From Vicia villosa (Eukaryota > Streptophyta > Magnoliopsida > Fabales > Fabaceae), in assembly GCF_029867415.1 (NCBI RefSeq), contig NW_026705152.1, forward strand, positions 992,001 to 1,056,000: 64,000 bases of DNA, given 5' to 3'. The notes beneath the pieces were generated by a model that ran no database searches, was not told the DNA's origin, and saw nothing but the letters and a program-made list of their open reading frames with translations. Position 1 is the stretch's first letter, and every line of letters begins with the position of its first letter. This document shows positions 21,746 to 62,335 of the stretch, piece by piece. The position numbers and the translations under genes were made by a program.

Positions 21746-21789
21746 AAGGAGTTCCCTATTTCCACGAATTCCAACGGCAGAAGCTCCCC

Positions 21790-35484: not shown

Positions 35485-37920
35485 TGTAACACCCCAATTC
35501 TACCCGCGGGATTTAAATGAAATCGGAGTATAAAAAGTCACAAATGAAACAATTGAGGTATCACATATTCATTCACTAAGACAATCAACTCGTCGCATAA
35601 AGCGGATACATAGCATTCATAGAGTACGGAAGAACCCACAAGCATCAAATAATAGTATTTAACATAAAACAATTTCCATAGAATTGCAACGGAAACTCAA
35701 AAATTTGTTCAAAGATTCATAGCATCATAATTCAACAATTAACACAATTAAAGTGGCAATATCCAAAAGACAACTCAAGTATTTGTCAAAACATAATAAA
35801 TCAAAAGCAAGTAAATTAACACGTTTGTCCCCCCGAGTGCTACGTATCAGAGCGACAACGACTCAAGACCAACTCGGCTAACCTCCTCTCAATGCGAATC
35901 ACCTGCACGTTACCAATATAAAGGCAACGGCGAAACAAAGAAAGGGTGAGATATCAATTCATATAATTGAGCGCATGATAAATTATATATCAGAAATTAG
36001 ACATATTCGGTTAATCGCATTCACAAGTATCGATATCCTCATATTATTCACCAAGTCGTTAATTCACAATTCAAATACTTCCGTCATATAATAAGTCACA
36101 AAAATACAATCACAATATAGTCACAAAACGTCACAATGTATAAATCACATAAGACACATGGGACATGACTCATGTATATGCATGTGGTACCAATCGGAGC
36201 TTCAGCCCCCGTCACCAATTGCCATTTGGCCTATCATGTTTGCCATAGTTTTCAGGTCGTCATGTTTGCCATAGTTTTCAGGCCGTCATGTTTGCCATAG
36301 TTTTCAGGCCGTCACAGAGTATATGCAAATGTATGTGACTCGATGAACCGAACATCACACAACATCATCATCATTTACTTCACAAAATATTCATCACAAG
36401 GCACACGCCCATATCACAATTATCATTATTAACTCAAGTAATAACACTCACACATTTTACGACAACATCACGTAAACAACGGAACAATTCCGGCAATTCA
36501 TCAAATCAACGAACGATTCCATTAGCAAAAGAATCACAAAGATATTCACAACAATCACATTCACGGTTAAATTCACAAGATACCGTAATTTACCGCTAAA
36601 CCGAATAGTTAATCTAAGTTCAAGTTTATTCCAATTAACTAGGCTAAAAAAATATTTAATTCAACTATTAATTTAATCGACCGATTAATATCACAATTTC
36701 GACAAAAGAACACCACCGCGTTAATGTACTAATTAAACTTAGCTACCACGTAAATTTTCATCAAATTCCGGACAACTAATTATACCTCTTAATTTGGCTA
36801 TTTCAATCAAACGGGGCAATTTGGAATATATTGGTCCTATAATTTCTATTGGTTTACTAATTTCATATTCTACTGTTTTCATTATATTTCAATTTATATA
36901 AACATGATTCATTTCAATTTATATGGAACAGTAGTGTCACTGCTACTGTCTGTTTCTATTTAATTACTATTAAGTTAGTATTCTTCTTGCTATCTACTTA
37001 GTCCTCTAATTTGCTACTACAACTACACTATGTATTATCAAATCCTTTAAAAGAAAATATGGTAGTGCTGCTAATATTATTTTCCAATATACACCACTGC
37101 TGCATGATGAAACAGGCGCATAAGTGAACAAAACAAAAGCACACTCACAGAAATAAAACGCTGAAAGCATAAACAAGGGGTTAATGAGCGGAACCCCCAT
37201 TCCCATCTCGTCTCGCGCCGGTCATTAGCACAACATTACGTTCATAACAATTCCAGCACAAATAACAATTCAACATACAGTAATGTAGTAACCTAAATAC
37301 CCAATCCCCGCATATAATTTCTCATAAACCCATTATAGGAAGAGAAACCCCACCCTTACCTCTTGTTTGGATTGAAGAAATCTCTACAACTCTAGCACTT
37401 GGATTGGAATTTCTCTAAGCTTGCTCCTACTCTTCAAGACCTAACCTCCACTCTTTCAAAATGATTTTCTATTTTCTGGTTTGCTCTACTCTATCTCTCA
37501 CTTTAACTACACAAAACCTATTATTTCTATAATATTGGGCTTAATAAATAACACTCCCTTCACCAATCTTTACTAAATCAAAATAGGCCCAATAAACTCA
37601 TTAACTCAAAATAAATTAAAATACTATTTCTAACACTATTCCACTATTATTCCATAAAAAAAATTAATATCTAATTATTTAATATACCAGTTAATACTCA
37701 ATAACTCATATTTACGGTCTAATCTCAATTACTCAGAAAATTCCCAAAACGCTACATATTAGCTTATTAATATTTCTAATACTAAAAATATTAAAATTTT
37801 AGATTAAATGTCGATCCGCTATCCCGAACTAATACCGACTAAATCGCTTCAAAACGCAAAAATTCAATAAACATCACAAACGTCTAAATTAAGCGAATAA
37901 ATAAATTTCTGGGCGTTACA
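35485..37920 (-). repeat. Element E left (3') LTR
   Basis: 2436 bp, TGTAACACCCC...GGGCGTTACA. The ATGCATGTGGTACCA block at 36179-36193 is followed by three 26-bp tandem units (GTCATGTTTGCCATAGTTTT-type) at about 36234-36311. The first about 1057 bp match 61279-62335 with few changes. No gene is supported. Confidence 0.9.
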
Positions 37921-38923: not shown

Positions 38924-39190
38924 TGTCATACCCCAATTTTTGACCCTAAGATCCTATATCATTCATATCCCAATCACTAATCAAGAGCTTCACTTGGAAG
39001 TTTGTTTGTGGTGTTGCACTCACCTCATCAATGAGAGGGACCATCAAGCACCAATGATTGTTTACCTTGTATGCATATTATACTAACCCAAATACCAAAA
39101 ATATTGCTTTGTTTCTTTGTAGGCTTTTGTTTTGTAGGTACCAAGCCAAGACATGCAATAAGCAAGGCATTTTTCACATTTTTGACTGAT

Positions 39191-40178
39191 GAAATCGATT
39201 TCCCTACTGGGTAAATCGATTTCCCTGCAGCAATCTTCAACAAAATCACATTCTGGACAGCATGAAATCGATTTCCCTCCTGGGTAAATCGATTTCCCTA
39301 GTGTATTTTGCGCCAAATTCTCTTCTGGAACAGAGTGAAATCGATTTCACTCCTGGGGAAATCGATTTCCTTCAGGCGAAATTCAAAAAAAATAGAGAGG
39401 GAAGCTTGATTTGATCTTGGCACCTATTTTCTTTGACCATCTTTGTCATTTCACCAATTTTCCACCTCATCAAAATAATTCTCTTCATTAAACCCACTTA
39501 AACCCCATTTTACCACTTTTTACCATTTAATTGCCACTTTAATCACCAATTAAACACAAGCTAATTACCAAATGCAAAAAGACCAAATTGCCACTACTCT
39601 TGCTCCAACTCTATAAATAGAGCCCTCTACTCTCTCATTTCTCAAGCTTTGAGAGCCAAAAAACCTCTTGCAATTTCTCTCCTCATTCTTACCAAATTCA
39701 CCAAAGCTCTTCATTCTTTCATAAAGTTTGTGAGTTACATCTTGAACCTCACAAACTTTGAGCTAAACCACCATCCATTTCACTCTTTTTTCTTTAATTG
39801 TTGAGAGATCAAGATTTGTGTTGGTGATTCTTGAAGTAGATCCAAGTTTTGTTCAAGATTTGGTAAATTTTCTTCATCCTTTTTGTATATCATGATGTAG
39901 ATCTTTGTTGCTTGTGTGTGATGCATCTTTGATGCTATATTGGTGCTATTTGATGGTGATTTGATGGAAAATTCGTGCTCCAATTGGTGTTTGATCATAA
40001 GGTGTTTGTACATTTGTTCAAGTCAAGTTTTATGCCTCTAAATGCTGTTTTTGCTGAAATTTGCACTGGTCAAATCGATTTCCTTAAGGCTCAAATCGAT
40101 TTCATGCTGTACGTAACTTGTTTTTTTTTGAAAACTGCCTTATGGAAATCGATTTCCCTCTGCATGAAATCGATTTCC
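39191..40178. repeat. Paired AAATCGATTTCC palindromes in LTR F, 21-bp spacing
   Basis: ATCGAT centres start at 39194/39215, 39267/39288, 39340/39361 (U3) and 40074/40095, 40148/40169 (after the TATA box). Every pair is exactly 21 bp apart and pairs recur every 73-74 bp. The same array is in the 3' LTR, offset by 15472 bp. Confidence 0.9.
39612..39619 (+). promoter_or_regulatory. TATA box of element F LTR promoter
   Basis: TATAAATA in CTCTATAAATAGAGCC, 688 bp into the LTR; duplicated at 55084-55091. Confidence 0.75.
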
Positions 40179-40230
40179 TGCTGGCAGAATGTGTTTTTTT
40201 GCCTTTTTTATGCTTGTTTTGGCTTCCTAC

Positions 40231-40484
40231 TTCCTCCATTTCATTAATATCATTGGATCTAGGATGTTGATAGGTTTGAAATGACCTAATCCATAATATT
40301 AGATGAATGATATTAATGATAGTGTGAGTTGATCATCTTTTGTGAATTTTATTCTTCTTCCTCCATTTCATTAATATCATTGGATCTAGGATGTTGATAG
40401 GTTTGAAAGAACCAAATCCATAATATTAGATGAATGATATTAATGATAGTGTGAGTTGATTATCTTTATGCATTTTATCTTCTT
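40231..40484. repeat. 127-bp direct duplication with inverted arms in LTR F
   Basis: Two copies start TTCCTCCATTTC (40231 and 40358). Each contains CATTAATATCATT and, about 75 bp later, its inverse AATGATATTAATG, so each copy can form a 13-bp stem. Confidence 0.8.
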
Positions 40485-42288
40485 CTTCTCCTTTTTTTCT
40501 TTTGATCGATGAAAGTCTTAATACTTTGAGAATTCTTATGGATTCTTAGTGAAGACTAGATCGTTACCTATTTTCTTTTCGTGCGGTATTGCTTTCGGAA
40601 GGCGATCTACATATCGCTCTTCTCGCATACATTAGCACATAAAGTTTTGACCGGCCTCGTTGTAGGGTGATTTCTACATAAATCACTTGGCGATCTGCTT
40701 AACATAGCGCAATATTTCGTGTCCCGAATAAAAAAGATCAAATGTGGAAGAGAATTGTATGCGGTTGATTTAAGACTTGTGGAGGTTTTTATCGTGTAGT
40801 CGCTATGATTTTATCAAGCTTCTGATAAGCCCCATTGACTTTAAATCCGAGTACATCATTCACTCACCATAGATCTTCCTACTAACTTTGATAACAGACT
40901 TGACAAGTTTCAAGATGGTTATCTTTAACATTTAACAACTAACTTTAATTTCCGCACCTTTACTATATCGCTCTTTATATTACCGCTCTTTATATTTCTC
41001 GCTTTATCGCTTTACTTTATCATTTCATCATATTTACTTTCCATCATTTTTCTTTTGTCCACTTGGACCATACTCTACTTTTCTTGCAAAAACACTAATA
41101 AATAACAAAAATCTAAAAAATACATAATGTTCTTTTTGGACTATCGGTTACTATCCCTAGCATTGTGGAGATTCGGACTTATGGACCTAGTACCCCTGGA
41201 CTCATTCTATTACTATCCTGTGATTGCTCTGTTTGTCTGGCATTGTTCTGTTGTATGTTTATGTGTGCAGGTATTTCCTTGAAAGCCCTTGATGGTTAAT
41301 TCCAAGGCATTGATATAAGGATTTTACCCAAAAACAGCCGTTACTCTGCCCGATTTTCGTCAGAATTTTAATGTGCTTAATGCGAAGTGGTGGTAAGATA
41401 ATATGTTCATCTGGATCCCCAAGTGTTAAATGTGATGGTTTAGTATTGATATTCCAAAGGATGGGAAATCTACCTTGACTCATAATGTCAAGTGTTGGCT
41501 TCTTATTTCGGTTAGACCGTTTCTTTCCTTAGCTTTTATTTTACGCAATAGGATAGCCTCTTCATCTCCTCCCATTCTTAAATTTTCAAAATCTTCTCCC
41601 TTTTTCAAAAACCTTCTTATGTTTGCAATCATTTTCAAAACGTTTTCTTTAAAAATATCTTTTGCCCTTAGTGGCTTTTTTCTTTAAAGTTTAGACACCG
41701 TTAACTGTCGAAACGAGTGGTTATACCCCACGATTTTGAAATTGATTGATATAATGAGATCTTTTCCGCGTGAGAGAGCTAGTGGCATACTCGTTGATTT
41801 TATCCGAGTTGGAGCCCTTCTTTCATTTGCGATGCAAAGAACTCGTTTGTTCTCATGCTCAAGATCAATGGCTGAGTATTTCTCTCCGACGACGATAAAG
41901 TGTTTATTCGTTTTAAAAAACGTTTTTCCCTTTAAGCGGAACTACATTAGCTCTGACTTCTCCATTGCACCAAGGAGGTATGTAGGCACAAAGCTTAACG
42001 CTTTTCCGAGCTTATTTTAAAAATAAAACAAACCCTTTTTTAGCACACACGACACAGATTTTCAAAAAGGTTTCTGTGGAATACCACAGATATGAGGGGT
42101 GCTTTAAACCTTCCCCTCATATAATCAACACCCGTACCTGAGAACTCTTTCTTGTTTTAAAAACAAAACTTTGGGTTTTTCGTTCTTTTCCCTTTTCCTT
42201 TGAAAAAATAAAGCGCGGTGGCGATTTCAAAACGGAATATTGATTCGAGTCAATTCCATGGCTTCGATATCAGATTTTCCCCGCTACA

Positions 42289-43086
42289 GAAAAATGGCGA
42301 CTTCACTGGGGACCCAGTTTTTAAGTGTGTTAAGCCTATTTTTGTTTATCTGTGTGTTTTTATTTGTATATATTGTTGTGTGCTTTGTTTGTTATTTTCT
42401 TCTTTTTTTTCTTTTGGTGCTTGATGGTTCCTCTGTGATGAGACAAAGTTCTAACCCGAACTTTGGTGAGTAACTTGAGATAGGAGGTGGTAAGACCAAT
42501 AGTCGCATGTCAGGAGCAATCCTTACCATGAGCGTCATATGGTGGAACCCCAATCAGTGGAGGCCTCATGGAAGGTAGTAGAGGTTGTTACGAACCATCG
42601 TGATAACGCTATTACTTTCAATAGTGAGTGTCCGTAGAAGCTGAATGACCTAGAACCCTTTTAACCAATCTAAGCCTTTTTAGGATGTAGTGCAGAAACA
42701 AGATCAAGTACCAATTTGAGCTTGTTGTCATGCGATACTACGCTCAGACGAGGTCTTTTTAGGCATATTATTGGCGCCCATGAGCAATTGTGCGTGCCGG
42801 TAATATCCGATAGAAGATTGAAAACTCTGGGAACCTTTGTAGAACCCGATTGGCAGGTACAAAATTCCCTAGATCACTCCTTGTGGGATGGGTAGACCCA
42901 TGGCTCCATGCTCGTGACGTCGAACCTTTGAACCTGGACTGTGTGATTTTGTGTGATTTGATGTGATCTTGTGTGCTCTTGATTGTGATTGATGCATAAA
43001 CCATGCATTCATGCATTCATAAAAATGACATTCACAATTGGTTTTCAAGGAACTTAGAGACATTCTTTGTAAACATCACAGGTACT
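42289..43086 (+). other. Element F PBS and 5' leader
   Basis: TGGCGACTTCACTGGGGACC (42295-42314) is complementary to a tRNA-Arg-type 3' end, the primer class of Ogre elements. The remaining 0.77 kb up to ORF1 has no supported gene. A TTTGTAAACATCACAG acceptor-like sequence just upstream of ORF1 might be a 3' splice site, but no donor was identified. Confidence 0.7.
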
Positions 43087-44596
43087 ATGGATCAAAAGAG
43101 AAGCATCAAGAAGTACACTTTCAGAAATTCAAGTGCAAAAGAATTGAAAGAGCTAGCAACTTTGGTTCCTAATCTTGACAACTTCAAAAGCCGTTATGGG
43201 AAATTGATCTCTATCTTGAAGACTAAAGTGGAAAAGGGGATTCTTGAGACTCTTGTGCAGTTTTATGACCCAGTTTATCATTGTTTCACCTTTCCTGATT
43301 ATCAGCTTATGCCCACTTTGGAGGAGTATTCTTATTGGATTGGTTTACCAGTTACGGATGACATACCGTTTAGTGGTCTGGAGAAAGTGCCTGAGGTTGA
43401 TGAGATAGCAGAGCTTCTTCATTTGAAGATATCAGATGTAAAAGCAAACATGACCAAAAAAGGAGGAATTTGGGGGTTGACTTCTAAGTTCTTGATTGGA
43501 AAAGGCTTCTATGTTGGCTAGTAAAGGAAGTATGATTGCTTTTGAGACATTTTTGGCCTTGCTCATCTATGGTTTGATACTCTTTCCCAACATTGACAAC
43601 TTTGTCGATGTTAATGCTATTCGGATTTTCATGATTGGGAATCCTGTGCCTACTTTGCTTGGGGATACTTATCATTCCATTCACCATAGGAATGATAAGA
43701 AAGGTGGACTTATCAATTGTTGCACTCCTTTGCTCTATAAGTGGTTTATTTCGCACTTACCTCAAGCTAAGAGTTTCCTGAACAATCCTGATGGTCTCTC
43801 ATGGTCTCAGAAAATCATGCCTCTTACTAATGGGAATATCCATTGGTACAATCCTGCTTATGACATTGGTGAGATTATTGATAGTTGTGGAGAATTCCCT
43901 AATGTACCTCTTCTTGGTATACAAGGAGGGATTACCTACAACCCCATTCTTGCAAGGCGTCAATTTTGCTACCCCATGAAGAAGCGACCCGCTAGTATTC
44001 TTGTGTCAGGAATCTTCTATCTTAATCAAGATGGAAATTTGGATATGAGAAATCGGTTTGTGCGTGCTTGGCACCATGTTGATAGGAAGAGACATTTGGG
44101 AACAAAACAATGTGTTGCTCTCAAAGACTATACTGATTGGGTTCGAGCTAGAGCTCATACTTTTCAGATGCCTTATTTACTCGAGGAGCCTTCTCTACTC
44201 GTTACTCCGCCATTGTCTTCCACTACTCCTGTTGAAAGTAGTGAAGAACATCTAGAGCTCGTGGCTAAGTTGAGAGCGGAAAGAGATGCTTTGGAGTTTG
44301 AGAACAAAGAGTTGAAGATACACTTGAAAGAAAAAGATGAAATGCTTGATATCCAAGATGGTTGGTTGATGGAAAAGGAAGATCAGATTCGTCATCAAGA
44401 AGAGTTGCTTCAACAACATGGTGAAAAGCGAAAGAGACCACAAGAAGATTCAGTCGCATGGAAAGAAGTTGCTGATAAGCTGATGGTCGAGAATGCTCAT
44501 TTGAAGGCCTTTTATGAAGATGAATTGGAGAAGCTCCGTAGGAAGCTGCAAAGAGGAGTTGGATCTTCATCAGAAGTGTTCCCTTCTAGTTTTTAG
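43087..44596 (+). pseudogene. Ogre ORF1 of element F, one frameshift
   Basis: ORF1 is an Ogre-specific protein of unknown function encoded before gag. The preferred start is ATG 43087 (MDQKRS), because upstream sequence is leader-like. Residues 1-137 include LVQFYDPVYHCFTFPDYQL and EEYSYWIGLPV, the signature of the DUF7745-like domain in plant retroelements. At about 43490-43510 the frame changes; the protein resumes with SKGSMIAFETFLALLIYG and continues to residue about 500. The C-terminus is a Glu/Lys-rich coiled coil. The shift sits by a GGAAAAGG run. Confidence 0.8.
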
Positions 44597-44765
44597 CTTT
44601 TTTCCTTTTGTTTTGTAATTTTGGATCTTTGAATCCTTTTGTATGCTTTTCCATGATTAATGAAAGAATATTGTTATGTTTTATGATGTTTTTTGCTAAT
44701 GTTTACAATTAATGTCTTAAAAGTTCCTTGAAAACCAAAAATAAAAATCATTTGCATTGCATTTC
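44597..44765 (+). other. Spacer between ORF1 and gag-pro
   Basis: Short AT-rich non-coding gap; nothing further seen. Confidence 0.5.
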
Positions 44766-47700
44766 ATGCATCATTCTGCATTTTGGTCCTGCTTCCGAGA
44801 GTATTCCCGAGGTCTTATTCAGTGTTCTTCATACAGAATCAAGCTGTCTCACCGGTATAATACTCGAGCTAACTGCAAGAAGAAGATGGAAGGTCTTGAA
44901 CAAGAGAATCGTGAGCTACGTGAAGAGGTTGTTACTTTGAGATCTGGTGTAGATCGTCTCACTGCTCTGGTTGAGACATTGATGGCTGCTCAGAATCAGA
45001 ATCAGAATCAGGTTCCTCCCCCCAATGCCCAAGCTCAGGGTCAGACCACTGTGATTTCTGAAATTGCTGCTGCAACCATTCCTGCTATTCCTGTTGGTGC
45101 TACTCAGCAACGTATGCCTAATGGATACCCCTGGGGCATGCCTGAAGGTTATTTGTCTGTTCCTGAGATGACTCGCCCGTTGACTCCTGTTATGGTCAAC
45201 ACCTCTCCTATTGTTCATACTGGTCCTTTTGTCCCAGAACCCATTTATGATGCTGCTCCAAGTGAAATTCATGACAGAATGGATGGTTTCCAAGATCAGT
45301 TTGAAGAATTGCAGAAAGAGATGAAAGCTCTCCGTGGGAAAGAACTGTTTGGAAAGAATGTGCATGATCTTTGCCTTGTTCCCAATGTGAAAGTACCTGC
45401 TAAGTTCAAGCTGCCTGAATTTGAGAAGTACAAAGGAAATTCCTGTCCTCAGGCACACCTGGTGATGTATATAAGGAAGATGTCCACTCACACTGATGAT
45501 CAACGTCTGTTGATTCACTATTTCCAAGACAGTCTGACTGGAGCTGCTTCTAAGTGGTATATGGGCCTTGATAGCACCCATATCCGCACTTTCAATGACT
45601 TAGCTGAAGCGTTTGTGAAGCAATACAAGTATAATGTGGACATGGCTCCTGATAGGGATCAATTGCGAGCTATGATGCAGAAAGAGAAGGAATCCTTCAA
45701 GGAATATGCTCAGAGATGGCGTGAGGTTGCCGCCCAAGTGATTCCTCCGATGGAAGAAAAAGAGATGACTAAGATTTTTCTGAAGACTCTTGGTCCGTTT
45801 TATTATGAGAAGATGATTGCTAGTGCTCCTGTAGACTTCACCGAAATGGTGGGTATGGGTGTCAGATTAGAAGAAGCTGTGAGAGAAGGTCGTTTGATTC
45901 GAAATGACAATTCATCTGGTGGTGCGAAGAAGTACGGTTCTTCATTCCAGAAGAAGAAAGAGTCAGATGCCAATACTGTTTCTCATGGGAGGAATAGTCG
46001 AGTCAGGAATCAATCTCAACAAGTGGCGTCAGTAACTCCTGTTGTGAATTCAGTGCCTGTAGCTCCTGTTAATCAACAACCAGCAAGGCGGAATCCGTAT
46101 CCTCGAGTTAATGTTGATCCTATCCCTATGACGTACACTGAACTGTATCCTGCTCTAATTCATAAGAAGCTGGTTCAACCAAGGTCACCACCTCCTGTTC
46201 CAGAGAAACTCCCTTGGTGGTACAAGGCTGATGCCACTTGTGCTTTTCATCAGAATGCTCCTGGGCATGATTTGGAAAATTGTTGGCCCCTGAAGAATGA
46301 AGTTCAGAGATTGGTCCGTTCTGGAATGCTCTCTTTCCGTGATATTGGCCCAAATGTGAAGAACAATCCGTTGCCAACTCATGAAGCGTCTGCTGTGAAT
46401 ATGGTGTATGGATGCCCTGGGAAGTATAAGATTTATCGTGTAGAACACATCAGAGGATCATTGGTAGAGATGCATGCCACTCTGTGTGAATACAGTCATT
46501 ATGAACATAATCATGCTGCTTGTAGGATTTGTTCAGTCAATCCTCGAGGGTGTTACATTGTAAGAAGAGACTTGCAAGAGATGATAGATCAAAGGCTCAT
46601 TGAGATTCTGAGGGATAGAGATGAAGATGATGTCAATGTGATTGAACCATGCTTTGAAATCCCGGAATGTGTAGAGATTGGTTATTATGGCAAAGCTGCT
46701 GTGGAACCTCTTGTGATATGTTTGCCTGGATCTGTACCTTATAGTTCTGATAAAGCTGTACCTTACAGATACAATGCCACCATGCTGGAAGCTGGAAAAG
46801 AAGTTGAGATTAAGCCTCTTTCTTCTGTTGAGAATATAGCAGATGTCAGTAGAGTGACTAGAAGCGGACGAGTTTTTACTCAGCCCCAATCAGTTGTGGA
46901 TGTCCAGAGGAATGCTACTCAAGTGCCTGTGAACAATAATGATGCGACAAAGGTGAATGCTGGGTCATCTTCAGGGAAGGAGATGGATGAGATTTTGAAG
47001 CTTATCAAGATGAGTGATTATAAGATTGTGGATCACTTGCATCGCACTCCGTACAAGATCTCTATAATGGAGTTGCTGGCGAATTCTCCTGCTCATAGGG
47101 ATTCTCTGATGAAGATACTTGATCAAGCCTTTGTGGATCATGATGTGACGCTGGATCAGTTTAATGGGGTTGTGAGTAATATCACTGCATGTAACAATTT
47201 GAGCTTCAGTGATGAAGATTTGCCTGAGGAAGGAAGAAATCATAATTTGGCTTTGCACATCTCTGTCAGTTGCAAAGAGGACTCAATGTCCAATGTGTTG
47301 ATTGATACTGGATCATCTCTGAATGTCATGCCAAAATCCACTCTTGCTAAGCTATCTTATGGTGGCACACCAATGAGATTTAGCAATGTGATCGTCAAGG
47401 CTTTTGATGGATCGAAGAAATCAGTGGTCGGAGAAGTGGATTTGCCTATTAGTATTGGACCATTTGTCTTCAAGATTACTTTTCAAGTGATGGACATTTT
47501 CCCTGCGTACAGTTGCTTATTGGGACGCCCATGGATCCATGATGCTGGGGCAGTTACTTCAACTCTTCACCAAAAGTTAAAATTTGTGAAAGATGGAAAG
47601 ATGGTCATTGTGAATGGAGAACAAGCGTTGCTGATTAGTCATCTCTCTTCGTTCCGTACCATAGAAGCTGATGAAGTGGTCATTGGAACTGCATTCCAAG

Positions 47701-48066
47701 CCCTGTCTGTTAATGATGAATTCAAAAAGGATGAAGCTTCCATTGCCTCCTTCAAAGATGCTCAGCTGGTGTGGTTCAGAATGGACATTCAGGAGTCTGG
47801 GGACAAGTGGTGAGTCTACAAGAGAACAGGAATAGAGCTGGTCTGGGATTTTCTGCCTCAGACAAGTATGTGATGAAGCCTGAGTCTGCTTTTCGTCCTT
47901 ATCTAGAGATGTTTCATAGTGCTGGGTTTCTGCACCCAACTCTTCCAGAGGTGGATGCTATTGTTGAAGGTGAACCAGAGCCAGAAGTGCCAAGCTTTGT
48001 GACCCGTGGAAAGATGATTAAGAATTGGATCACCATTGACATTCCTGAGTGTACTCATGTCTCAAA
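44766..48066 (+). pseudogene. Ogre gag-protease (pol exon 1) of element F, one apparent frameshift
   Basis: From ATG 44766 (an alternative, MEGLEQ at 44886, is possible) the frame encodes an N-terminal coiled coil and a Gln/Pro-rich linker. A Ty3/gypsy gag core follows (KFKLPEFEKYKGNSCPQAHL, WYMGLDSTHIRTFNDLAEAF, FKEYAQRWREVAAQV), then a CCHC-like CAFHQNAPGHDLENC near residue 492. The aspartic protease has VLIDTGSSLNVM near residue 845 and LLGRPWIH about 80 residues on. The frame stops at TGA 47811-47813, but the conserved continuation (NRNRAGLGF..., ending HVS) is open in another frame from about 47771 to 48066. An indel of about two bases near 47765-47780 explains this. The exon ends at a splice donor at 48067. 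Confidence 0.85.
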
Positions 48067-48331
48067 GTAATTTGCTTTTATGTTTTTCAAAATCCTTTCA
48101 TTCTGCCCAAGATGAAAGTGAAGTTGTTGGGGCTGTTTTCTGTTTGTTTTAAACATTAAAATCATCAATAAAAGTCATTTTGTTTCTGCATATAAATGCT
48201 TTTTATCTTTTTGCTTTTTCTGGAAAGTGGTAACACAAAAAACCTTAAAAAATGTTTTCATTTTCCACAATCTGCACGATTACATGTTTGCATATATCTT
48301 TCCTTTCCTGAAATAATAATCATTTGTGCAG
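48067..48331 (+). other. Ogre pol intron (265 nt)
   Basis: Donor AAA|GTAATTT at 48067 and acceptor TTTGTGCAG|ATTAATC ending at 48331. The interior is T-rich with a pyrimidine-rich 3' part. Splicing joins the HVS... end of exon 1 to the LINK... start of exon 2 in frame and removes the TAA at 48068-48070. A partially spliced intron between protease and RT is an established feature of Ogre elements. Confidence 0.85.
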
Positions 48332-51300
48332 ATTAATCAATAAAACCGTTGAAAGTAATGACCCTGCGCCCTCTCCTAACTTCGAGTGTCCTGTGTATGA
48401 GGCGGAAGAAGAGAGTGATGAATGTATTCCTGATGAGATTTCCCGACTGCTTGAGCACGAGGAAGACACTATTCAGCCGTATAAAGAGCCGTTAGAAGTC
48501 ATCAACTTGGGTTCTGAAGAAGATAAAAAGGAAGTCAAGATTGGGGCACTGCTTGATCAAGATGTTAAGAAGAGGATGGTAGAGCTTCTTAAAGAGTATG
48601 TTGACATTTTTGCATGGTCCTACCAAGATATGCCTGGGTTGGACACAGATATTGTGGAGCATCGTTTGCCGTTGAAACCAGAATGTCCTCCTGTCAAGCA
48701 AAAGTTAAGAAGGAGTCATCCTGATATGGCAGAAAAGATCAAGAATGAGGTCTTGAAACAGATTGATGCAGGTTTCCTTGTCACTTCTGTATATCCTCAA
48801 TGGATTGCCAATATTGTGCCCGTTCCAAAGAAAGATGGAAAAGTTCGCATGTGTGTGGATTATAGAAATTTGAACAAAGCCAGTCCGAAAGATGATTTTC
48901 CTCTACCTCACATTGATATGTTGGTAGATAGCACTGCAAAGTTTGAAGTTTTCTCCTTTATGGATGGTTTTTCAGGATACAACCAGATTAAGATGGCACC
49001 TGAAGACATGGAAAAAACAACCTTTATCACACCATGGGGGACATTCTGTTACAAAGTGATGCCATTTGGGTTGAAGAATGCTGGTGCGACATATCAGAGA
49101 GCCATGACTACTCTTTTCCATGATATGATGCACAAAGAAATTGAGGTTTATGTGGATGACATGATTGCCAAGTCCCAGTCAGAGGAGGGGCACATGGAAG
49201 ATCTTTTAAAGTTGTTTCAGCGTTTGAGAAAGTATCGTCTCCGCTTGAACCCAAACAAATGCACTTTTGGTGTCTGTTCTGGAAAGTTATTGGGTTTTGT
49301 TGTCAGTCAGAGAGGAATTGAAGTAGATCATGATAAAGTCAAAGCAATTCAGGAAATGCCAGCACCAAAGACTGAAAAACAAGTGAGAGGTTTCCTCGGA
49401 CGTCTGAATTATATCTCCAGGTTCATTTCCAATATGACTGCTACCTGTGAGCCAATCTTCAAGCTGTTAAAGAAAAATCAGGGATGTGTGTGGAATGAAG
49501 ATTGTCAGAAAGCTTTTGACAACATCAAAGAATATCTGCTTGAACCTCCCATTTTGCTCCCTCCAGTTGAGGGAAGACCTCTGATTATGTACCTCACAGT
49601 GCTTGAAAACTCAATGGGATGTATGTTGGGTCAGCATGACGAGTCTGGTCGAAAAGAGTATGCAATATACTACCTTAGCAAAAAGTTTACCGAGTGCGAA
49701 ACAAGATACTCGCTGCTTGAGAAAACTTGCTGTGCTTTGGTGTGGGCTGCTCGCCGACTGAGACAGTATATGTTGAACCACACCACCTTATTGATCTCCA
49801 AAATGGATCCAATTAAGTATGTATTTGAGAAACCTGCATTAACTGGAAGGATTGCTCGCTGGCAAATGTTGTTATCAGAATATGATATTGAATATCGAGC
49901 TCAGAAAGCTGTGAAAGGAAGTGTGTTGGCAGAGTACCTCGCTCACCAACCAATTGATGATCATCAGTCTATCAAGATGGACTTCCCAGATGAAGATATA
50001 ATGTATTTGAGATCTCAAGATTGGGATGAACCATTGCCAGAAGAAGGGCCAGATCCTGAATCCAAATGGGGTTTGATTTTTGATGGAGCTTCTAATATTC
50101 ATGGCCATGGAATTGGCGCCATTATCATCACTCCACATGGATCACATGTTCCTTTCACTGCAAGGATATGTTTTGACTGTACAAATAATATTGCTGAGTA
50201 TGAAGCTTGCATCATGGGACTTGAAGAGGCCATTAATCTGAGAATTAAGATTCTTGATGTTTATGGAGATTCTGCGCTTGTGATTAATCAGATTAAAGGA
50301 GAATGGGAAACTCGTCATCCTGGTTTAATTCCTTACAAAGATTACGCCAGAAGGTTATTGACATTCTTCAACAAAGTTGAATTCCACCACATCCCTCGAG
50401 ATGAGAATCAGATGGCTGATGCATTAGCCACATTGTCTTCCATGTACAAAGTGAATTTCCATAATGAGGAACCTCAAATTACAATCAGGCGTCTTGATAG
50501 ACCTGCTCATGTATTTGCAGTTGAGGAAGCAACAGATGAAAAGCCTTGGTATTTCGATATTAAGCACTTCCTCCAGACTCAAGAGTACCCACTTGGGGCA
50601 TCAAATAAAGATAAGAAAACTTTGAGGAGATTGGCTGGCAGTTTCTTCATCAATGCTGATGTTTTGTACAAAAGGAATTATGACATGGTTTTGCTCAGAT
50701 GCGTGGATAGACACGAAGCAGACATGTTGATGCATGAAATTCATGAAGGTTCTTTTGGTACCCATGCCAATGGACATTCGATGGCTAAAAAGATGCTTAG
50801 AGCAGGTTACTATTGGTTGACAATGGAATCTGATTGCTACAAGTTTGTAAAGAAGTGTCACAAATGTCAAGTGTATGCTGACAAGATTCATGTGCCTCCG
50901 ACACTTCTCAATGTTATTTCCTCTCCATGGCCTTTCTCTATGTGGGGTATTGATATGATTGGCATGATTGAACCCAAGGCTTCGAATGGACATCGATTCA
51001 TCCTGGTAGCAATCGATTACTTCACCAAGTGGGTAGAAGCTGCTTCATATGCTAATGTAACAAAGCAAGTTGTGGTCAGATTTATCAAGAACAACATCAT
51101 TTGTAGATATGGTGTACCGAGCAAGATCATCACTGACAATGGCTCGAATCTGAACAATAGCATGATGAGAGAATTGTGTGAAAACTTCAAGATTGAACAT
51201 CACAACTCTTCGCCTTATAGGCCGAAGATGAATGGAGCTGTTGAAGCAGCAAATAAGAACATTAAGAAAATAGTGCAAAAGATGGTTGTTACATACAAGG

Positions 51301-51794
51301 ACTGGCACGAGATGCTCCCATTTGCTTTGCATGGGTACCGTACATCTGTTCGTACTTCAACAGGGGCAACTCCCTTTTCTTTGGTTTATGGCATGGAAGC
51401 AATGCTCCCTATTGAGGTTGAGATTCCATCATTGAGAATTTTAATGGAAACCAAGTTATCTGAGGCTGAATGGTGTCAGAGCAGGTTTGATCAATTGAAT
51501 TTGATAGAAGAAAAGAGAATGACGGCTTTATGCCATGGTCAGTTATATCAGAAAAGAATGAAGAAAGCATTTGATAAGAAGGTTCGACCTCGTGTATTCA
51601 GAGAAGGCGACCTCGTGCTCAAAAGGATCTTGTCTTTCACTTCCGATTCAAGGGGCAAGTGGACTCCTAATTTTGAAGGACCATATGTTGTTAAGAAAGC
51701 CTTCTCTGGCGGTGCATTAATTCTTGCAACTATGGATGGAGAAGAGCTCCCACGTCCCGTGAATGCTGATGTAGTCAAGAAATACTTCGCCTAA
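48332..51794 (+). CDS. Ogre pol exon 2: RT, RNase H, aRNH, integrase, intact
   Basis: Open for about 1154 codons. RT: IANIVPVPKKDGKVRMCVDY, MDGFSGYNQI and catalytic YVDDM at 49149-49160. The first RNase H (MYLTVLENSMGCML, AIYYLSKKFTECETRYS) lacks the first catalytic Asp, as in other dual-RNH elements. The second, archaeal-type RNase H starts LIFDGASNIHGHGIGA near 50073, with YGDSALVINQIKGEW and ENQMADALATL. Integrase: His/Cys zinc residues (HEGSFGTHANGH, CHKCQ), then core Asp (GIDMIG, about 50951), Asp (ITDNGS, about 51133) and Glu (NGAVEAANK, about 51240). The C-terminus has FEGPYVV, the GPY motif. There is no chromodomain. The frame ends KKYFA at 51794. All catalytic positions I can check look intact. 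Confidence 0.93.
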
Positions 51795-51813
51795 ATAACA
51801 AAAGAACAGCTCG

Positions 51814-51956
51814 CTAAGTTGAAAACCCGAAAGGGCGGCTTAGGCAAAAAAGAGCGTCTCGGTGGATTGAAAACCCGAAAGGGCGGTCCAGGCAAAAATT
51901 AGAGACATAAACAGAATAAAATACCCGGTGGACTGAAAACCCGAAAGGGCGGTCCA
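51814..51956 (+). repeat. Three GAAA-tetraloop hairpins after Ogre pol
   Basis: Three copies of a unit with invariant core TTGAAAACCCGAAAGGGCGG (or CTG...). CCC-GAAA-GGG forms the inner stem-loop. Flanking arms pair: CTAAG 51814-51818/CTTAG 51839-51843; TGGA 51863-51866/TCCA 51887-51890; TGGA 51929-51932/TCCA 51953-51956. The first begins 19 bp after the pol stop. Confidence 0.8.
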
Positions 51957-51962
51957 GGCAAA

Positions 51963-52595
51963 AGTTAGGGATTCATGGCAAGTAACTACATCAGACAAGA
52001 CTTGATCATCAGCAGTCCTCTGTTTATCATGAAAAAGTTCGACACTTCTCAACGGAAGCCTTTGCTCAGGAATTCCCAGTTGAGAGAGAGGATGGGGTCA
52101 TTACATTTCAATGTACCTTTTCCACAAAATTACCACTTTCCAAACTTTGTAATAATCCATGGGGTCTTGCCTTTTGCAGACTACCATTCCATTAAAAAAG
52201 TTTGAGCCTTTATCTTTTATTGGCAATCTTATTTCTTTCATATCTCTCAAAATGTCATTTATTGTTGATAGTAATTTTTAAAACAAAGAGAAAATTGATT
52301 TCAACAAAATCCTTTTGAAAATTATAAAAGAATTTTTTACTTTGATTCATGAGTGCATTACAAGGAATGGATATGTTGATGTATTCATATGCAGAAGAAC
52401 GTATTACACTCAATATACCTTTGGCCTGGTTCGAGTTTGGTTTAGAACTCAACTACGGTGTTCTCTCAGCTTCAATGTTCCCTAGTGTTGGGTAGCATAT
52501 ATTTTTGAAGCCATCAAAAGATTGATAGCAGTTTCTGCTCTGGTGTTCAGCTTGGGACATGCTTGATTATGTCATATTTGTACACCATCTCTTTT
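51963..52595 (+). other. Element F 3' region, unique part
   Basis: AT-rich non-coding sequence. No ORF with recognisable domain, no strong repeat. Confidence 0.55.
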
Positions 52596-53955
52596 ATATC
52601 ATCAGTGGTATGGTGGTATACCTTCTTCATGCCTTCAGTGGAACGTGGGTATGTGTTATCGTTAGTGGTACGGCGATACATCTCTTTCTACCTCCAGTGG
52701 GACGTTGGTAGTTCACCTTCAGTGGAACGTTGGTGTATTTTGTTATCTTTCATCGTCAGTGGTACGTCGATGTATTTCTCTTCAATACCTTCAGTGGAAC
52801 GTGGGTATGTGTTATCGTTAGTGGTACGGCGATACATCTCTTTCTACCTCCAGTGGGACGTTGGTAGTTCACCTTCAGTGGAACGTTGGTGTATTTTGTT
52901 ATCTTTCATCGTCAGTGGTACGTCGATGTATTTCTCTTCAATACCTTCAGTGGAACGTGGGTATGTGTTATCGTTAGTGGTACGGCGATACATCTCTTTC
53001 TACCTCCAGTGGGACGTTGGTAGTTCACCTTCAGTGGAACGTTGGTGTATTTTGTTATCTTTCATCGTCAGTGGTACGTCGATGTATTTCTCTTCAATAC
53101 CTTCAGTGGAACGTGGGTATGTGTTATCGTTAGTGGTACGGCGATACATCTCTTTCTACCTCCAGTGGGACGTTGGTAGTTCACCTTCAGTGGAACGTTG
53201 GTGTATTTTGTTATCTTTCATCGTCAGTGGTACGTCGATGTATTTCTCTTCAATACCTTCAGTGGAACGTGGGTATGTGTTATCGTTAGTGGTACGGCGA
53301 TACATCTCTTTCTACCTCCAGTGGGACGTTGGTAGTTCACCCTCAGTGGAACGTTGGTGTATTTTGTTATCTTTTATCGTCAGTGGTACGTCGATGTATT
53401 TCTCTTCAATACCTTCAGTGGAACGTGGGTATGTGTTATCGTTAGTGGTACGGCGATACATCTCTTTCTACCTCCAGTGGGACGTTGGTAGTTCACCTTC
53501 AGTGGAACGTTGGTGTATTTTGTTATCTTCATCGTCAGTGGTATGTCGATGTATTTAGTTCACCTTCAGTGGAACGTTGGTGTATTTTGTTATCTTCATC
53601 GTCAGTGGTACGTCGATGTATATCTCTTCATATCATCAATGGTACGGTGGTATATCTCTCTTCATATCATCAGTGGTACGGTGGTATATATCTCTTCATA
53701 TCATCAGTGGTACGGTGGTATATCTCTCTTCATATCATCAGTGGTACGGTGGTACATCTCTTCATATCATCATTGGTACGGTGGTATATTTCTTCTTCAT
53801 GCCTTCAGTGGAACGTTGGTGTATTTTGTTATCTTCATCGTCAGTGGTACGTCGATGTATATTTCTTCTTCATGCCTTCAGTGGAACATTGGTATGTGTT
53901 ATCGTCAGTGGTACGGCGGTACATCTCTTCAATCATCAGTGGTACGATGATGTGA
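52596..53955 (+). repeat. Tandem stem-loop array in Ogre 3' region (156-bp higher-order repeat)
   Basis: Six copies of a 156-bp unit begin at 52632, 52788, 52944, 53100, 53256 and 53412. Each unit is itself five copies of a 25-37-bp monomer centred on AGTGGNAC, and about a dozen further monomers follow to 53955. Each AGTGGNAC is flanked by sequences that pair with each other, for example CATCG/CGATG, TATCG/CGATA, CTACC/GGTAG, CACC/GGTG, TACC/GGTA, ATCATC/GATGAT. Tandem repeats in Ogre/Tat 3' UTRs are known and can seed satellites; the paired-stem pattern is my observation. Because 156 is divisible by 3, long open frames arise as a by-product. Confidence 0.9.
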
Positions 53956-53997
53956 TTTCTGTTAACGGAAGATTGGTATTCTAATTCAGGATGCATA

Positions 53998-54225
53998 CTT
54001 CCTCATCCCCAGTGAAAGAGGATGATCCCCTTTTCTCATCCCCAGTGAAAGAGGATACTGTAATCTCTCTGACGCGAAGTGTTTTTCCAGAGAAGTTTCT
54101 TTTCCCACCAAAGTTCTGTCTTTCCAACAAAGTCCTGCATTCCCCAGTGGAGTCTCTACTTGCAAGACATTTGTTTCCCCAGCGGAGTTATAGCAAGACA
54201 TTTGTTTTCCCCAGTGGATCACTTG
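53998..54225 (+). repeat. CCCCAGTGRA motif cluster before the PPT of element F
   Basis: Five CCCCAG(T/C)G motifs occur near 54007, 54040, 54142, 54178 and 54211. The first two are flanked by CATCC...GGAT and can form short hairpins. They share CAGTG with the stem-loop array and may be diverged relatives. Confidence 0.6.
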
Positions 54226-54383
54226 TTACTCCCTAATGTTGTCATGCTTTATTATCATCACATGCATTCATTAACATTGCATTGCATCTTAGGATCAAAA
54301 ATTGTGTCTTATATATTTAAGTCTCTTCGATTTTGTCAAAACGAAGATTTCCAATCATCGTATCTCCAAGTCGAAGAAACTTA

Positions 54384-54395
54384 AATAGGGGCATC
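54384..54395 (+). promoter_or_regulatory. Polypurine tract of element F
   Basis: AAATAGGGGCATC directly precedes the 3' LTR (TGTCATACCCC at 54396). It is short but in the correct place. Confidence 0.65.
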
Positions 54396-57300
54396 TGTCA
54401 TACCCCAATTTTTGACCCTAAGATCCTATATCATTCATATCCCAATCACTAATCAAGAGCTTCACTTGGAAGTTTGTTTGTGGTGTTGCACTCACCTCAT
54501 CAATGAGAGGGACCATCAAGCACCAATGATTGTTTACCTTGTATGCATATTATACTAACCCAAATACCAAAAATATTGCTTTGTTTCTTTGTAGGCTTTT
54601 GTTTTGTAGGTACCAAGCCAAGACATGCAATAAGCAAGGCATTTTTCACATTTTTGACTGATGAAATCGATTTCCCTACTGGGTAAATCGATTTCCCTGC
54701 AGCAATCTTCAACAAAATCACATTCTGGACAGCATGAAATCGATTTCCCTCCTGGGTAAATCGATTTCCCTAGTGTATTTTGCGCCAAATTCTCTTCTGG
54801 AACAGAGTGAAATCGATTTCACTCCTGGGGAAATCGATTTCCTTCAGGCGAAATTCAAAAAAAATAGAGAGGGAAGCTTGATTTGATCTTGGCACCTATT
54901 TTCTTTGACCATCTTTGTCATTTCACCAATTTTCCACCTCATCAAAATAATTCTCTTCATTAAACCCACTTAAACCCCATTTTACCACTTTTTACCATTT
55001 AATTGCCACTTTAATCACCAATTAAACACAAGCTAATTACCAAATGCAAAAAGACCAAATTGCCACTACTCTTGCTCCAACTCTATAAATAGAGCCCTCT
55101 ACTCTCTCATTTCTCAAGCTTTGAGAGCCAAAAAACCTCTTGCAATTTCTCTCCTCATTCTTACCAAATTCACCAAAGCTCTTCATTCTTTCATAAAGTT
55201 TGTGAGTTACATCTTGAACCTCACAAACTTTGAGCTAAACCACCATCCATTTCACTCTTTTTTCTTTAATTGTTGAGAGATCAAGATTTGTGTTGGTGAT
55301 TCTTGAAGTAGATCCAAGTTTTGTTCAAGATTTGGTAAATTTTCTTCATCCTTTTTGTATATCATGATGTAGATCTTTGTTGCTTGTGTGTGATGCATCT
55401 TTGATGCTATATTGGTGCTATTTGATGGTGATTTGATGGAAAATTCGTGCTCCAATTGGTGTTTGATCATAAGGTGTTTGTACATTTGTTCAAGTCAAGT
55501 TTTATGCCTCTAAATGCTGTTTTTGCTGAAATTTGCACTGGTCAAATCGATTTCCTTAAGGCTCAAATCGATTTCATGCTGTACGTAACTTGTTTTTTTT
55601 TGAAAACTGCCTTATGGAAATCGATTTCCCTCTGCATGAAATCGATTTCCTGCTGGCAGAATGTGTTTTTTTGCCTTTTTTATGCTTGTTTTGGCTTCCT
55701 ACTTCCTCCATTTCATTAATATCATTGGATCTAGGATGTTGATAGGTTTGAAATGACCTAATCCATAATATTAGATGAATGATATTAATGATAGTGTGAG
55801 TTGATCATCTTTTGTGAATTTTATTCTTCTTCCTCCATTTCATTAATATCATTGGATCTAGGATGTTGATAGGTTTGAAAGAACCAAATCCATAATATTA
55901 GATGAATGATATTAATGATAGTGTGAGTTGATTATCTTTATGCATTTTATCTTCTTCTTCTCCTTTTTTTCTTTTGATCGATGAAAGTCTTAATACTTTG
56001 AGAATTCTTATGGATTCTTAGTGAAGACTAGATCGTTACCTATTTTCTTTTCGTGCGGTATTGCTTTCGGAAGGCGATCTACATATCGCTCTTCTCGCAT
56101 ACATTAGCACATAAAGTTTTGACCGGCCTCGTTGTAGGGTGATTTCTACATAAATCACTTGGCGATCTGCTTAACATAGCGCAATATTTCGTGTCCCGAA
56201 TAAAAAAGATCAAATGTGGAAGAGAATTGTATGCGGTTGATTTAAGACTTGTGGAGGTTTTTATCGTGTAGTCGCTATGATTTTATCAAGCTTCTGATAA
56301 GCCCCATTGACTTTAAATCCGAGTACATCATTCACTCACCATAGATCTTCCTACTAACTTTGATAACAGACTTGACAAGTTTCAAGATGGTTATCTTTAA
56401 CATTTAACAACTAACTTTAATTTCCGCACCTTTACTATATCGCTCTTTATATTACCGCTCTTTATATTTCTCGCTTTATCGCTTTACTTTATCATTTCAT
56501 CATATTTACTTTCCATCATTTTTCTTTTGTCCACTTGGACCATACTCTACTTTTCTTGCAAAAACACTAATAAATAACAAAAATCTAAAAAATACATAAT
56601 GTTCTCTTTGGACTATCGGTTACTATCCCTAGCATTGTGGAGATTCGGACTTATGGACCTAGTACCCCTGGACTCATTCTATTACTATCCTGTGATTGCT
56701 CTGTTTGTCTGGCATTGTTCTGTTGTATGTTTATGTGTGCAGGTATTTCCTTGAAAGCCCTTGATGGTTAATTCCAAGGCATTGATATAAGGATTTTACC
56801 CAAAAACAGCCGTTACTCTGCCCGATTTTCGTCAGAATTTTAATGTGCTTAATGCGAAGTGGTGGTAAGATAATATGTTCATCTGGATCCCCAAGTGTTA
56901 AATGTGATGGTTTAGTATTGATATTCCAAAGGATGGGAAATCTACCTTGACTCATAATGTCAAGTGTTGGCTTCTTATTTCGGTTAGACCGTTTCTTTCC
57001 TTAGCTTTTATTTTACGCAATAGGATAGCCTCTTCATCTCCTCCCATTCTTAAATTTTCAAAATCTTCTCCCTTTTTCAAAAACCTTCTTATGTTTGCAA
57101 TCATTTTCAAAACGTTTTCTTTAAAAATATCTTTTGCCCTTAGTGGCTTTTTTCTTTAAAGTTTAGACACCGTTAACTGTCGAAACGAGTGGTTATACCC
57201 CACGATTTTGAAATTGATTGATATAATGAGATCTTTTCCGCGTGAGAGAGCTAGTGGCATACTCGTTGATTTTATCCGAGTTGGAGCCCTTCTTTCATTT

Positions 57301-57760
57301 GCGATGCAAAGAACTCGTTTGTTCTCATGCTCAAGATCAATGGCTGAGTATTTCTCTCCGACGACGATAAAGTGTTTATTCGTTTTAAAAAACGTTTTTC
57401 CCTTTAAGCGGAACTACATTAGCTCTGACTTCTCCATTGCACCAAGGAGGTATGTAGGCACAAAGCTTAACGCTTTTCCGAGCTTATTTTAAAAATAAAA
57501 CAAACCCTTTTTTAGCACACACGACACAGATTTTCAAAAAGGTTTCTGTGGAATACCACAGATATGAGGGGTGCTTTAAACCTTCCCCTCATATAATCAA
57601 CACCCGTACCTGAGATCTCTTTCTTGTTTTAAAAACAAAACTTTGGGTTTTTCGTTCTTTTCCCTTTTCCTTTGAAAAAATAAAGCGCGGTGGCGATTTC
57701 AAAACGGAATATTGATTCGAGTCAATTCCATGGCTTCGATATCAGATTTTCCCCGCTACA
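54396..57760 (+). repeat. Element F 3' LTR
   Basis: 3365 bp, nearly identical to 38924-42288. TATA box at 55084-55091; palindrome array from about 54663. The AATAG duplication follows at 57761-57765. Confidence 0.95.
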
Positions 57761-61278: not shown

Positions 61279-62335
61279 TGTAACACCCCAATTCTACCCG
61301 CGGGATTTAAATGAAATCGGAGTATAAAAATTTACAAATGAAACAATTGAGGTATCACATATTCATTCACTAAGACAATCAACTCGTCGCATAAAGCGGA
61401 TACATAGCATTCATAGAGTACGGAAGAACCGACAAGCATCAAATAATAGTATTTAACATAAAACAACTTCCATAGAATTGCAACGGAAACTCAAAAATTT
61501 GTTCAAAGATTCATAGCATCATAATTCAACAATTAACACAATTAAAGTGGCAATCTCCAAAAGACAACTCAAGTATTTGTCAAAACATAATAAATCAAAA
61601 GCAAGTAAATTAACACGTTCGTCCCCCCGAGTGCTACGTATCAGAGCGACAACGACTCAAGACCAACTCGGCTAACCTCCTCTCAATGTGAATCACCTGC
61701 ACGTTACCAATATAAAGGCAACGGCGAAACAAAGAAAGGGTGAGATATCAATTCATATAATTGAGCGCATGATAAATTATATATCAGAAATTAGACATAT
61801 TCGGTTAATCGCATTCACAAGTATCGATATCCTCATATTATTCACCAAGTCGTTAATTCACAATTCAAATACCTCTGTCATATAATAAGTCACAAAAATA
61901 CAATCACAATATAGTCACAAAACGTCACAATGTATAAATCACATAAGACACATGGGACATGACTCATGTATATGCATGTGGTACCAATCGGAGCTTCAGC
62001 CCCCGTCACCAATTGTCATTTGGCCTGTCATGTTTGCCATAGTTTTCAGGCCGTCATGTTTGCCATAGTTTTCAGGCCGTCATGTTTGCCATAGTTTTCA
62101 GGCCGTCACAGAGTATATGCAAATGTATGTGACTCGATGAACCGAACATCACACAACATCATCATCATTTACTTCACAAAATATTCATCACAAGGCACAC
62201 GCCCATATCGCAATTATCATTATTAACTCAAGTAATAACACTCACACATTTTACGACAACATCACGTAAACAACGGAACAATTCCGGCAATTCATCAAAT
62301 CAACGAACGATGCCATTAGCAAAAGAATCACAAAG
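61279..62335 (-). repeat. Element E right (5') LTR, truncated
   Basis: Matches 35485-36541 closely, including the ATGCATGTGGTACCA block (61973-61987) and the 26-bp tandem units (about 62030-62105), then breaks off at CACAAAG (62335). About 1380 bp of LTR is missing and no TG...CA end or target site follows. Confidence 0.9.

Follow-up and report, generated by a model that had tools for sequence, protein, structure and literature searches.

Why would a tandem repeat keep one loop while the arms that close it change in matched pairs? The question is posed by a stretch of 64,000 nucleotides of Vicia villosa DNA (the window), in which a sequence-only reading had noticed about 43 tandem stem-loops with a constant loop and arms that differ between monomers yet still pair. 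Here, we ask where this array sits, whether its arms and loop have changed as a hairpin would, and what may have kept them so.

The array and its host element

The basic description is borne out. The window contains 43 loop cores, with loop starts spanning 52604 to 53938, and 39 of them read exactly AGTGGNAC, the rest being AGTGGTAT (two cores), AATGGTAC and ATTGGTAC. Stems are of 4–8 bp and core loops of 8–9 nt, and the arm pairs quoted in the earlier reading are all present, including the G:U-containing stem TATATCATC/GGTGGTATA. Five hairpins make up a 156-bp unit that recurs 6.2 times (Table 1), so that the 43 monomers are not independent cases; they reduce to 19 distinct 28-mers and 15 distinct 9+9 arm pairs.

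Table 1. Features of the retrotransposon and of its 3′ region, in window coordinates.
Feature	Position	Strand	Basis
Ogre-type LTR retrotransposon	38924-57760	+	LTRs of 3365 bp, 99.94% identical (self-BLAST); AATAG in both flanks
5′ LTR	38924..42288	+	99.94% identity to 54396-57760 over 3365 bp (self-BLAST); AATAG (5-bp target site duplication) ends the left flank
Primer binding site TGGCGACTTCACTGGGGA	42295..42312	+	Read from sequence
ORF1 frame, DUF7745 (PF24924), E 1.2e-92	43496..44596	+	ORF list and Pfam
gag-protease ORF (Retrotrans_gag; aspartyl protease under the Pfam cut-off)	44745..47813	+	ORF list and Pfam
ORF with RT, RNase H, second RNase-H-like domain (RVT_3) and integrase	48312..51794	+	ORF list and Pfam
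Tandem array of 43 hairpin monomers, loop AGTGGNAC or near variant	52590..53965	+	Sequence reading, TRF
156-bp higher-order unit of five hairpins	52624..53581	+	TRF: 6.2 copies, 98% matches
34-bp subarray, 6.7 copies, stem mostly TATCATC/GGTGGTA	53598..53824	+	TRF
Five TCCCCAG[T/C]G motifs, just past the array and upstream of the 3′ LTR	54006..54218	+	Sequence comparison
3′ LTR	54396..57760	+	Self-BLAST; AATAG begins the right flank

Placement of the array in an Ogre 3′ region, also proposed from sequence, is supported by LTRs, ORFs and Pfam domains. The array follows the integrase frame and precedes the 3′ LTR, reads in the same sense as the RNA of the element, and as in other Ogre 3′ untranslated regions this tandem array between pol and 3′ LTR varies among copies. 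Further traits of the lineage are present. An extra ORF precedes gag, and its DUF7745 domain is one that we take to be linked to Ogre ORF1. A second RNase-H-like domain before the integrase, which is a Tat trait, is found by Pfam (RT_RNaseH at 422–524 and RVT_3 at 600–707 of one ORF). The primer binding site would presumably be served by tRNA-Arg. The gag-protease and RT-RNase H-integrase regions form two ORFs separated by about 500 nt; the corresponding gap in the Ogre lineage averages 274 bp in the portion of PMC6317226 consulted. The element is best classed as a young Ogre of the Tat lineage (Ty3/gypsy), and the region under study as its hypervariable, non-coding 3′ part.

By eye, the Ogre seems to be inserted in another Ty3/gypsy element on the minus strand (35485–62335), with 1.06-kb copies at 35485–36541 and 61279–62335 that are 98.7% identical; the frames of this outer element stop and restart near both Ogre insertion borders (ORF list, by eye). 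Two more long direct-repeat pairs, at 2723–11555 and 21278–27784, are 99.7% and 99.4% identical and look like the LTR pairs of other young elements.

Several other identities for the array were considered and rejected. A 349-aa frame (52509–53558) stays open through the array because 156 = 3 × 52, and it has no Pfam match that would speak for coding use. The loops contain AGTGGTA, which is also usual in the D-loop of tRNAs; ARAGORN finds no tRNA gene in the window. Nor does the array belong to a known RNA family, Rfam giving 0 matches at gathering thresholds. Relatives in viral contigs were found neither by peptide scan nor with the 17-mer CCCCAGTGGAGTCGCCA, and 22 single 16-mer matches in those contigs were taken for chance. 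When the letters of the monomer were sought in published papers, the matches listed looked unrelated by title.

Matched arms and a constrained loop

Across the 19 monomer types of the window, 86.0% of cells at pairs 3–8, counted outward from the loop, are standard pairs, compared with 76.4 ± 2.0% when the 3′ letters are redealt (0/500 as high). In slid registers, only 23–62% of cells pair at these positions. The covariation score is 0.476 versus 0.285 ± 0.035 in shuffles (0/500), and changes on both sides occur at four of the six pairs, which 2/500 shuffles match. In further standard pair types, the arms do not exceed shuffles (8 versus 8.1; 385/500). The pairing also has gaps: pair 2 is often a T.T mismatch, and pair 3 is unpaired in five of the 19 types.

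The earlier reading had proposed that the paired changes be tested with shared descent taken into account, and we did this with copies from the host assembly (2.03 Gb, 1888 contigs), among which L031 is the array stretch of the window. Of 70 copies, 60 entered the main tree-aware run, four near-identical ones and six duplicates of copies already in the set being dropped; the comparison of stem pairing kept 64. The 60 copies hold 1580 monomers, 282 of them distinct, and 54 types are seen in at least three copies. Monomer seeds came from monomers with near-intact loops, and matching in the main run and the rerun was then by arms only. An overlapping ATTGGTAT register was excluded from the multi-copy analyses of covariation, of loop changes and of stem pairing. 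For the null, columns were simulated independently, with their own change counts, along a FastTree tree. This test is our own, akin to R-scape in spirit but distinct from it, and any tree of monomers is approximate because monomers exchange.

The paired changes survive this null. Watson-Crick pairs are in excess at pair 3 (p=0.003), pair 5 (p=0.008), pair 7 (p=0.015) and pair 8 (p=0.043), and pairs 3–7 summed give p=0.001; pairs 1, 2, 6 and 9 are non-significant, and pair 4 is invariant. The excess is specific to the register, at 0.81 versus −0.31 to +0.03 when the arms are slid. Six more arrays share >60% of their 60-mers with another array. Without these six near-identical arrays (54 copies, 52 types), p is 0.003, 0.006, 0.007 and 0.033 for pairs 3, 5, 7 and 8, and the sum is reached in 0/1000 simulations. 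The copies L045 and L088 lie about 0.55 Mb apart on one contig (C6) and have the whole array in common, 60-mer for 60-mer; they represent either a segmental duplication or a very recent insertion pair.

For the loop, variants confined to one copy (private variants) served as a near-neutral yardstick, on the assumption that new insertions mutate without selection; a private variant was counted only if a single established type lay exactly one step away. Among 117 such private changes in the 60 copies, 34 are in the loop, matching the proportion of positions that it occupies (8 of 28), as compared to 7 of 90 changes between established types (Fisher p=1.7e-4), three of these seven at the variable sixth base. 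Stricter cut-offs give 5/74 and 4/66 for established changes (p 8e-5 and 1e-4), the rerun on 54 copies gives 35/118 private versus 6/88 established (p=3.5e-5), and earlier versions in which monomers were found by their loops agree. Overall, the loop takes about 29–30% of private changes and 6–8% of established ones. The loop is constrained: it is conserved in the transposing lineage, though in new copies it is free to mutate. This may mean that selection acts on the loop, or else that amplification takes monomers whose loops are intact.

The same yardstick applied to the stems finds no difference. Private changes at paired stem positions keep pairing in 12/32 cases (43% expected from their spectrum) versus 10/20 for established changes (p 0.4–0.75). 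At the level of events, no bias of G:U over A:C is evident, with 16:10 among established and 18:15 among private steps, so these counts do not single out an RNA strand from DNA; in a census of types, pairs 3–7 include 37 G:U and 5 A:C. The proposal of selection for an RNA or single-strand DNA hairpin with a fixed loop stands in part. Paired changes survive the tree-aware null, the loop is conserved and hairpins recur in other array types, as described below, but stem pairing is kept no more often in established than in private changes and no preference for G:U is evident.

Other arrays, folding energy and the primer binding site

Three AGTGGNAC loops in a row are found at 25,999 places in the genome, versus 563 for a reversed control. 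Copies were also collected by their flanks: 40 scored copies, the window's own included, of 1583 candidates for the downstream flank (53930–54395), and 40 scored copies of 1406 candidates for the upstream flank. The downstream set includes some near-identical members (four on contig C772, the pair L051/L052 and the pair L054/L059). Of its 40 copies, 27 have at least 10 AGTGGNAC cores, 11 have an array with the core AACYATTGA, one has an array of the form TGGCA...ACAG, and one (L055) has six cores. In L055, another element is apparently inserted into the hairpin array at about 600–1330, as judged by eye. All 30 upstream-flank loci read contain AGTGGNAC cores and none contains AACYATTGA, which implies that the other arrays share the downstream, and perhaps not the upstream, surroundings. 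Array length and order vary widely among copies, and arm chimeras occur.

The other arrays are also built of hairpins. In L063 and ten other copies, a 62–63-bp unit holds two hairpins, with stems CTACC/GGTAG and TATCG/CGGTA and the core AACYATTGA or a near variant. These stems are those of the window's relatives, and the core resembles, by eye, the reverse complement of the AATGGT loop found in the same stems. Examples are L063 (899–1467), L064, L046, L054 and L066. The TGGCA...ACAG unit, seen in L061 (118–1251) and in parts of L046, L051, L052 and L064, is a second hairpin family in which TGGCA...ACAG is constant and both stems covary: the inner one reads, for example, GTCTTC/GAAGAC, the outer one AACGAA/TTCGTT, AGCAAA/TTTGCT or GGCAAA/TTTGTT. 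Its outer arms covary independently of the window array (AACGAA/TTCGTT versus AGCAAA/TTTGCT). With a fixed spacer, the unit occurs at 10,521 places, versus 0 for the reversed control; among 100 such places listed, a hand count gives 20 (in about five arrays) with CGAA...TTCG, 2 with CGAA...TTTG and 0 with CAAA...TTCG.

The one more distant copy read, L111, carries several versions next to each other: AACTATTGA, AAGTGAAAA (GCATC/GATGT, GTACC/GGTAT), AGTGAAA, AGTGCAAC and AGTGGAAC (CACCG/CGGTG, CTACC/GGTAG, CACC/GGTG), then CCAGTGAA, and finally motifs like the primer binding site before the LTR. The idea that loops are replaced in concert is softened by this copy, in which several loop versions stand in one series. 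The region looks like one long series of diverged hairpins, of which each sublineage amplifies a section. Elsewhere, on contig C772 (262960–278312; L047, L048, L050 and L053), four Ogre 3′ regions stand in tandem about 4.8–5.3 kb apart, as if LTR plus 3′ region were becoming a satellite.

Folding energy was another test put forward in the sequence-only reading, with dinucleotide shuffles as controls, and here the expectation of extra stability fails. The whole array has a minimum free energy (MFE) of −361.0 versus −365.1 ± 7.8 in 20 shuffles (z +0.5); when pairs are limited to 45 nt, the values are −269.2 and −261.6 ± 14.1 (z −0.54), no better. Sliding windows along the array average z 0.05, and the antisense strand is less stable than its own shuffles (z +4.2). 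Local hairpins form at 9 of the 43 monomers in the unrestricted MFE structure of the array and at 24 of 43 with the 45-nt limit, and folds of single monomers (20 distinct 30-mers) average z −1.5 sense and −0.8 antisense. Clear extra stability of the sense strand is confined to the AACYATTGA array (z −3.6); for the TGGCA array and L111, the antisense strand does better (−2.9 and −2.5) than the sense strand (−0.8 and −1.6). A control stretch upstream of the array reaches z −2.8, so that energy does not single out the arrays.

Counts of inverted repeats give a different picture for some arrays. Perfect hairpins with 5-bp arms, a criterion that admits no G:U and no spacer >16 nt, number 4 in the 156-bp unit versus 0.85 in shuffles (1/500), 6 versus 0.94 in a three-unit stretch of the AACYATTGA array (0/500; one unit alone, 2 versus 0.37, 17/500) and 14 versus 5.1 in L111 (0/500). 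There is no excess in five control regions (the LTR comes closest, at 40/500), nor is one seen for the TGGCA unit, for a 58-bp unit or for that 3′ portion of the window array which lies outside the higher-order repeat.

It has to be considered whether the array acts through the element's own primer binding site. The loop CAGTGGA (CAGTGAA in L111) is complementary to TTCACTG of this site over 7 bp, one of them G:U. Past the array, four of the five motifs in Table 1 complement the site, with 11 Watson-Crick pairs at 54006 and 54039 and 9 at 54141 and 54208 (14 pairs at 54141 with one G:U included); at the fifth (54176, CAGCG), pairing is broken by a C.A mismatch. CCCAG[T/C]G has 0 occurrences in six other element stretches counted, and three to six CCCCAG[T/C]G sites are found in the last 440 nt of 40/40 copies, the window's included. 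The longest Watson-Crick run, 11, is matched by just 1/100 shuffles of the 3′ region. By such pairing, the array and the downstream cluster might join the two ends of the RNA, 5′ and 3′, or act as competitors of the primer tRNA. Yet in eleven copies whose downstream flank is almost identical, the loops are AACYATTGA and offer no such complement, and this weakens loop pairing as the function of the array. Moreover, with G:U allowed, the 14-bp run is matched by 10/100 shuffles and is not exceptional, and conservation of the downstream motifs does not significantly exceed that of the sequence around them (84/429 circular shifts are as low). We consider this explanation very improbable.

Explanations and known systems

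In the 3′ region of this Ogre lineage, then, monomers are hairpins with covarying arms and a constrained loop, and hairpin construction recurs in unrelated monomers before the same 3′ flank. It is likely that the hairpin architecture is maintained. The data suggest, but do not prove, that the hairpin shape itself is kept, and an RNA function of the array is plausible, if unproven. We tentatively favor, with close to even confidence, the reading that the repeats serve the genomic RNA as a cis-acting element in many copies, whose hairpins are kept by selection. The loop of each hairpin would be offered to a partner, either protein or RNA, and the copies, many but individually weak, would act jointly. 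Copy number would be set by strand transfer during reverse transcription, and selection would preserve a hairpin array with a single shared loop, leaving the stems free to drift as matched pairs. Candidate roles may include Gag binding or packaging, or, by analogy with retroviral export elements, nuclear export of unspliced RNA; export is a candidate because Ogre RNA is partly spliced, according to a section of PMC6317226. Covariation under the tree-aware null, loop constraint, recurrence in other arrays and sense orientation all speak for a cis-acting element; the flat MFE, lack of stem-pairing retention and of G:U bias, partial hairpin formation and absence of an Rfam family speak against it. 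It is also conceivable, though we think it unlikely, that the Ogre 3′ region is a fast-evolving RNA module in which the hairpin is inherited rather than the sequence. Arrays would be replaced by unrelated hairpin monomers, with one loop per array across different stems, selected for a partner that is itself changing.

The main rival, which we regard as seriously possible while somewhat short of probable, requires no function. Hairpin-prone monomers would amplify themselves, as reverse transcriptase, held up at hairpins, jumps from a repeat of one co-packaged RNA to a repeat of the other and so lengthens the arrays; template switching would copy one arm onto the other, making the arms covary, and the loop would stay constant as the site of homology for the jump. 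Strand transfer between co-packaged copies is the origin proposed in print for such repeats (in the relevant part of PMC7004042), and template switching can both create and mend hairpins (PMC8794818, in part). The latter process was overlooked when the paired changes were called hard to explain by drift. This rival also accommodates the lack of fold-energy excess, of detectable recent purifying selection on pairing and of strand bias, the wide differences in array length and order with their arm chimeras, and an AACYATTGA core like the reverse complement of AATGGT, as inversion of a loop would give. On the other hand, crossovers in the loop would unlink the arms, yet pair 7 is unpaired in only a minority of types (8/53, four of them C-A). 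Private changes at mismatched stem positions mend pairing in 5/8 cases, a small number that by estimate is about what the private spectrum gives, with no sign of frequent active correction. Furthermore, monomers of several unrelated kinds precede the shared 3′ flank, and every one of them is a hairpin. Simple descent and drift of a tandem repeat, in which pairing reflects chance and a few double changes inherited early, would fit the small number of independent types, the extensive exchange of monomers, the ordinary energies and a pair-type number no higher than in shuffles. But the tree-aware result, its specificity to register, the independently covarying arms of the TGGCA array and the excess of inverted repeats already disfavor this explanation, which we judge improbable.

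If the hairpin is indeed kept, there would be a testable reason why the largest plant retrotransposons carry such repeats, and why these turn over so fast. If it is not, the arrays would document strand transfer driven by hairpins in nature, and would warn that covariation and a constant loop can arise without an excess of fold energy.

Hypervariable tandem repeats of Ogre/Tat 3′ untranslated regions were reportedly described by Macas et al. in 2009. That these repeats exist, vary and give rise to satellites is known (sections of PMC7004042, PMC6317226, PMC11963269 and PMC3305785); they are the origin of most satellites in Lathyrus sativus (PMC7004042, in part), and the function of such repeats is stated to be unknown in portions of PMC3305785 and PMC11963269. 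The window array is like them in its position between integrase and 3′ LTR, its variable monomers and copy number and its potential as a satellite seed (parts of PMC7004042 and PMC6317226). Unlike the array here, they are described without structure: the text of PMC7004042, as far as available, has 0 occurrences of "hairpin", "palindrom", "dyad", "inverted repeat" or "secondary structure". Minisatellites A–E of soybean Gmr9/GmOgre likewise belong to an Ogre and are interleaved (26, 38, 37, 105 and 43 bp), forming ordered higher-order arrays that follow the coding region; the portion of PMC3305785 consulted reports no structure or loop conservation and states their function as unknown. The POL-3′LTR arrays of Retand are also tandem arrays of the Tat lineage beside the 3′ LTR, with family-specific sequence (PMC11963269, in part). 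Retand has long antisense ORFs, whereas here there are none of at least 180 aa between integrase and 3′ LTR, and the accessible text of that paper has 0 uses of "hairpin" or "secondary structure" (PMC11963269).

Hairpin-rich plant satellites, also mentioned in a part of PMC3290532, resemble the array in another way. Paphiopedilum SatA, for example, has monomers with inverted repeats and hairpin loops; satellite monomers of this kind, where described further, are of 230–359 bp, however, and in the available portion of PMC6090851 no constant loop, covarying stems or Ogre 3′ location is stated. In the open-access literature, surveyed mostly by title, we came upon no description of an Ogre 3′ region with hairpin monomers or covarying stems, in agreement with the sequence-only reading, which knew of none. 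Tandem repeats in the Ogre 3′ region are known, and hairpin-built monomers with covarying stems in that place are unreported as far as we could find.

Beyond plants, the transport element of M-PMV also has a 3′ location. Retroviral constitutive transport elements (CTEs) are structured RNA that exports intron-containing RNA, and their effect is greater with several copies than with one (PMC4829213, in part); a partly spliced RNA is likewise made by Ogre. The CTE sequence, binding of NXF1/TAP and export activity are not among the features found for the array, so that the likeness is a candidate analogy.
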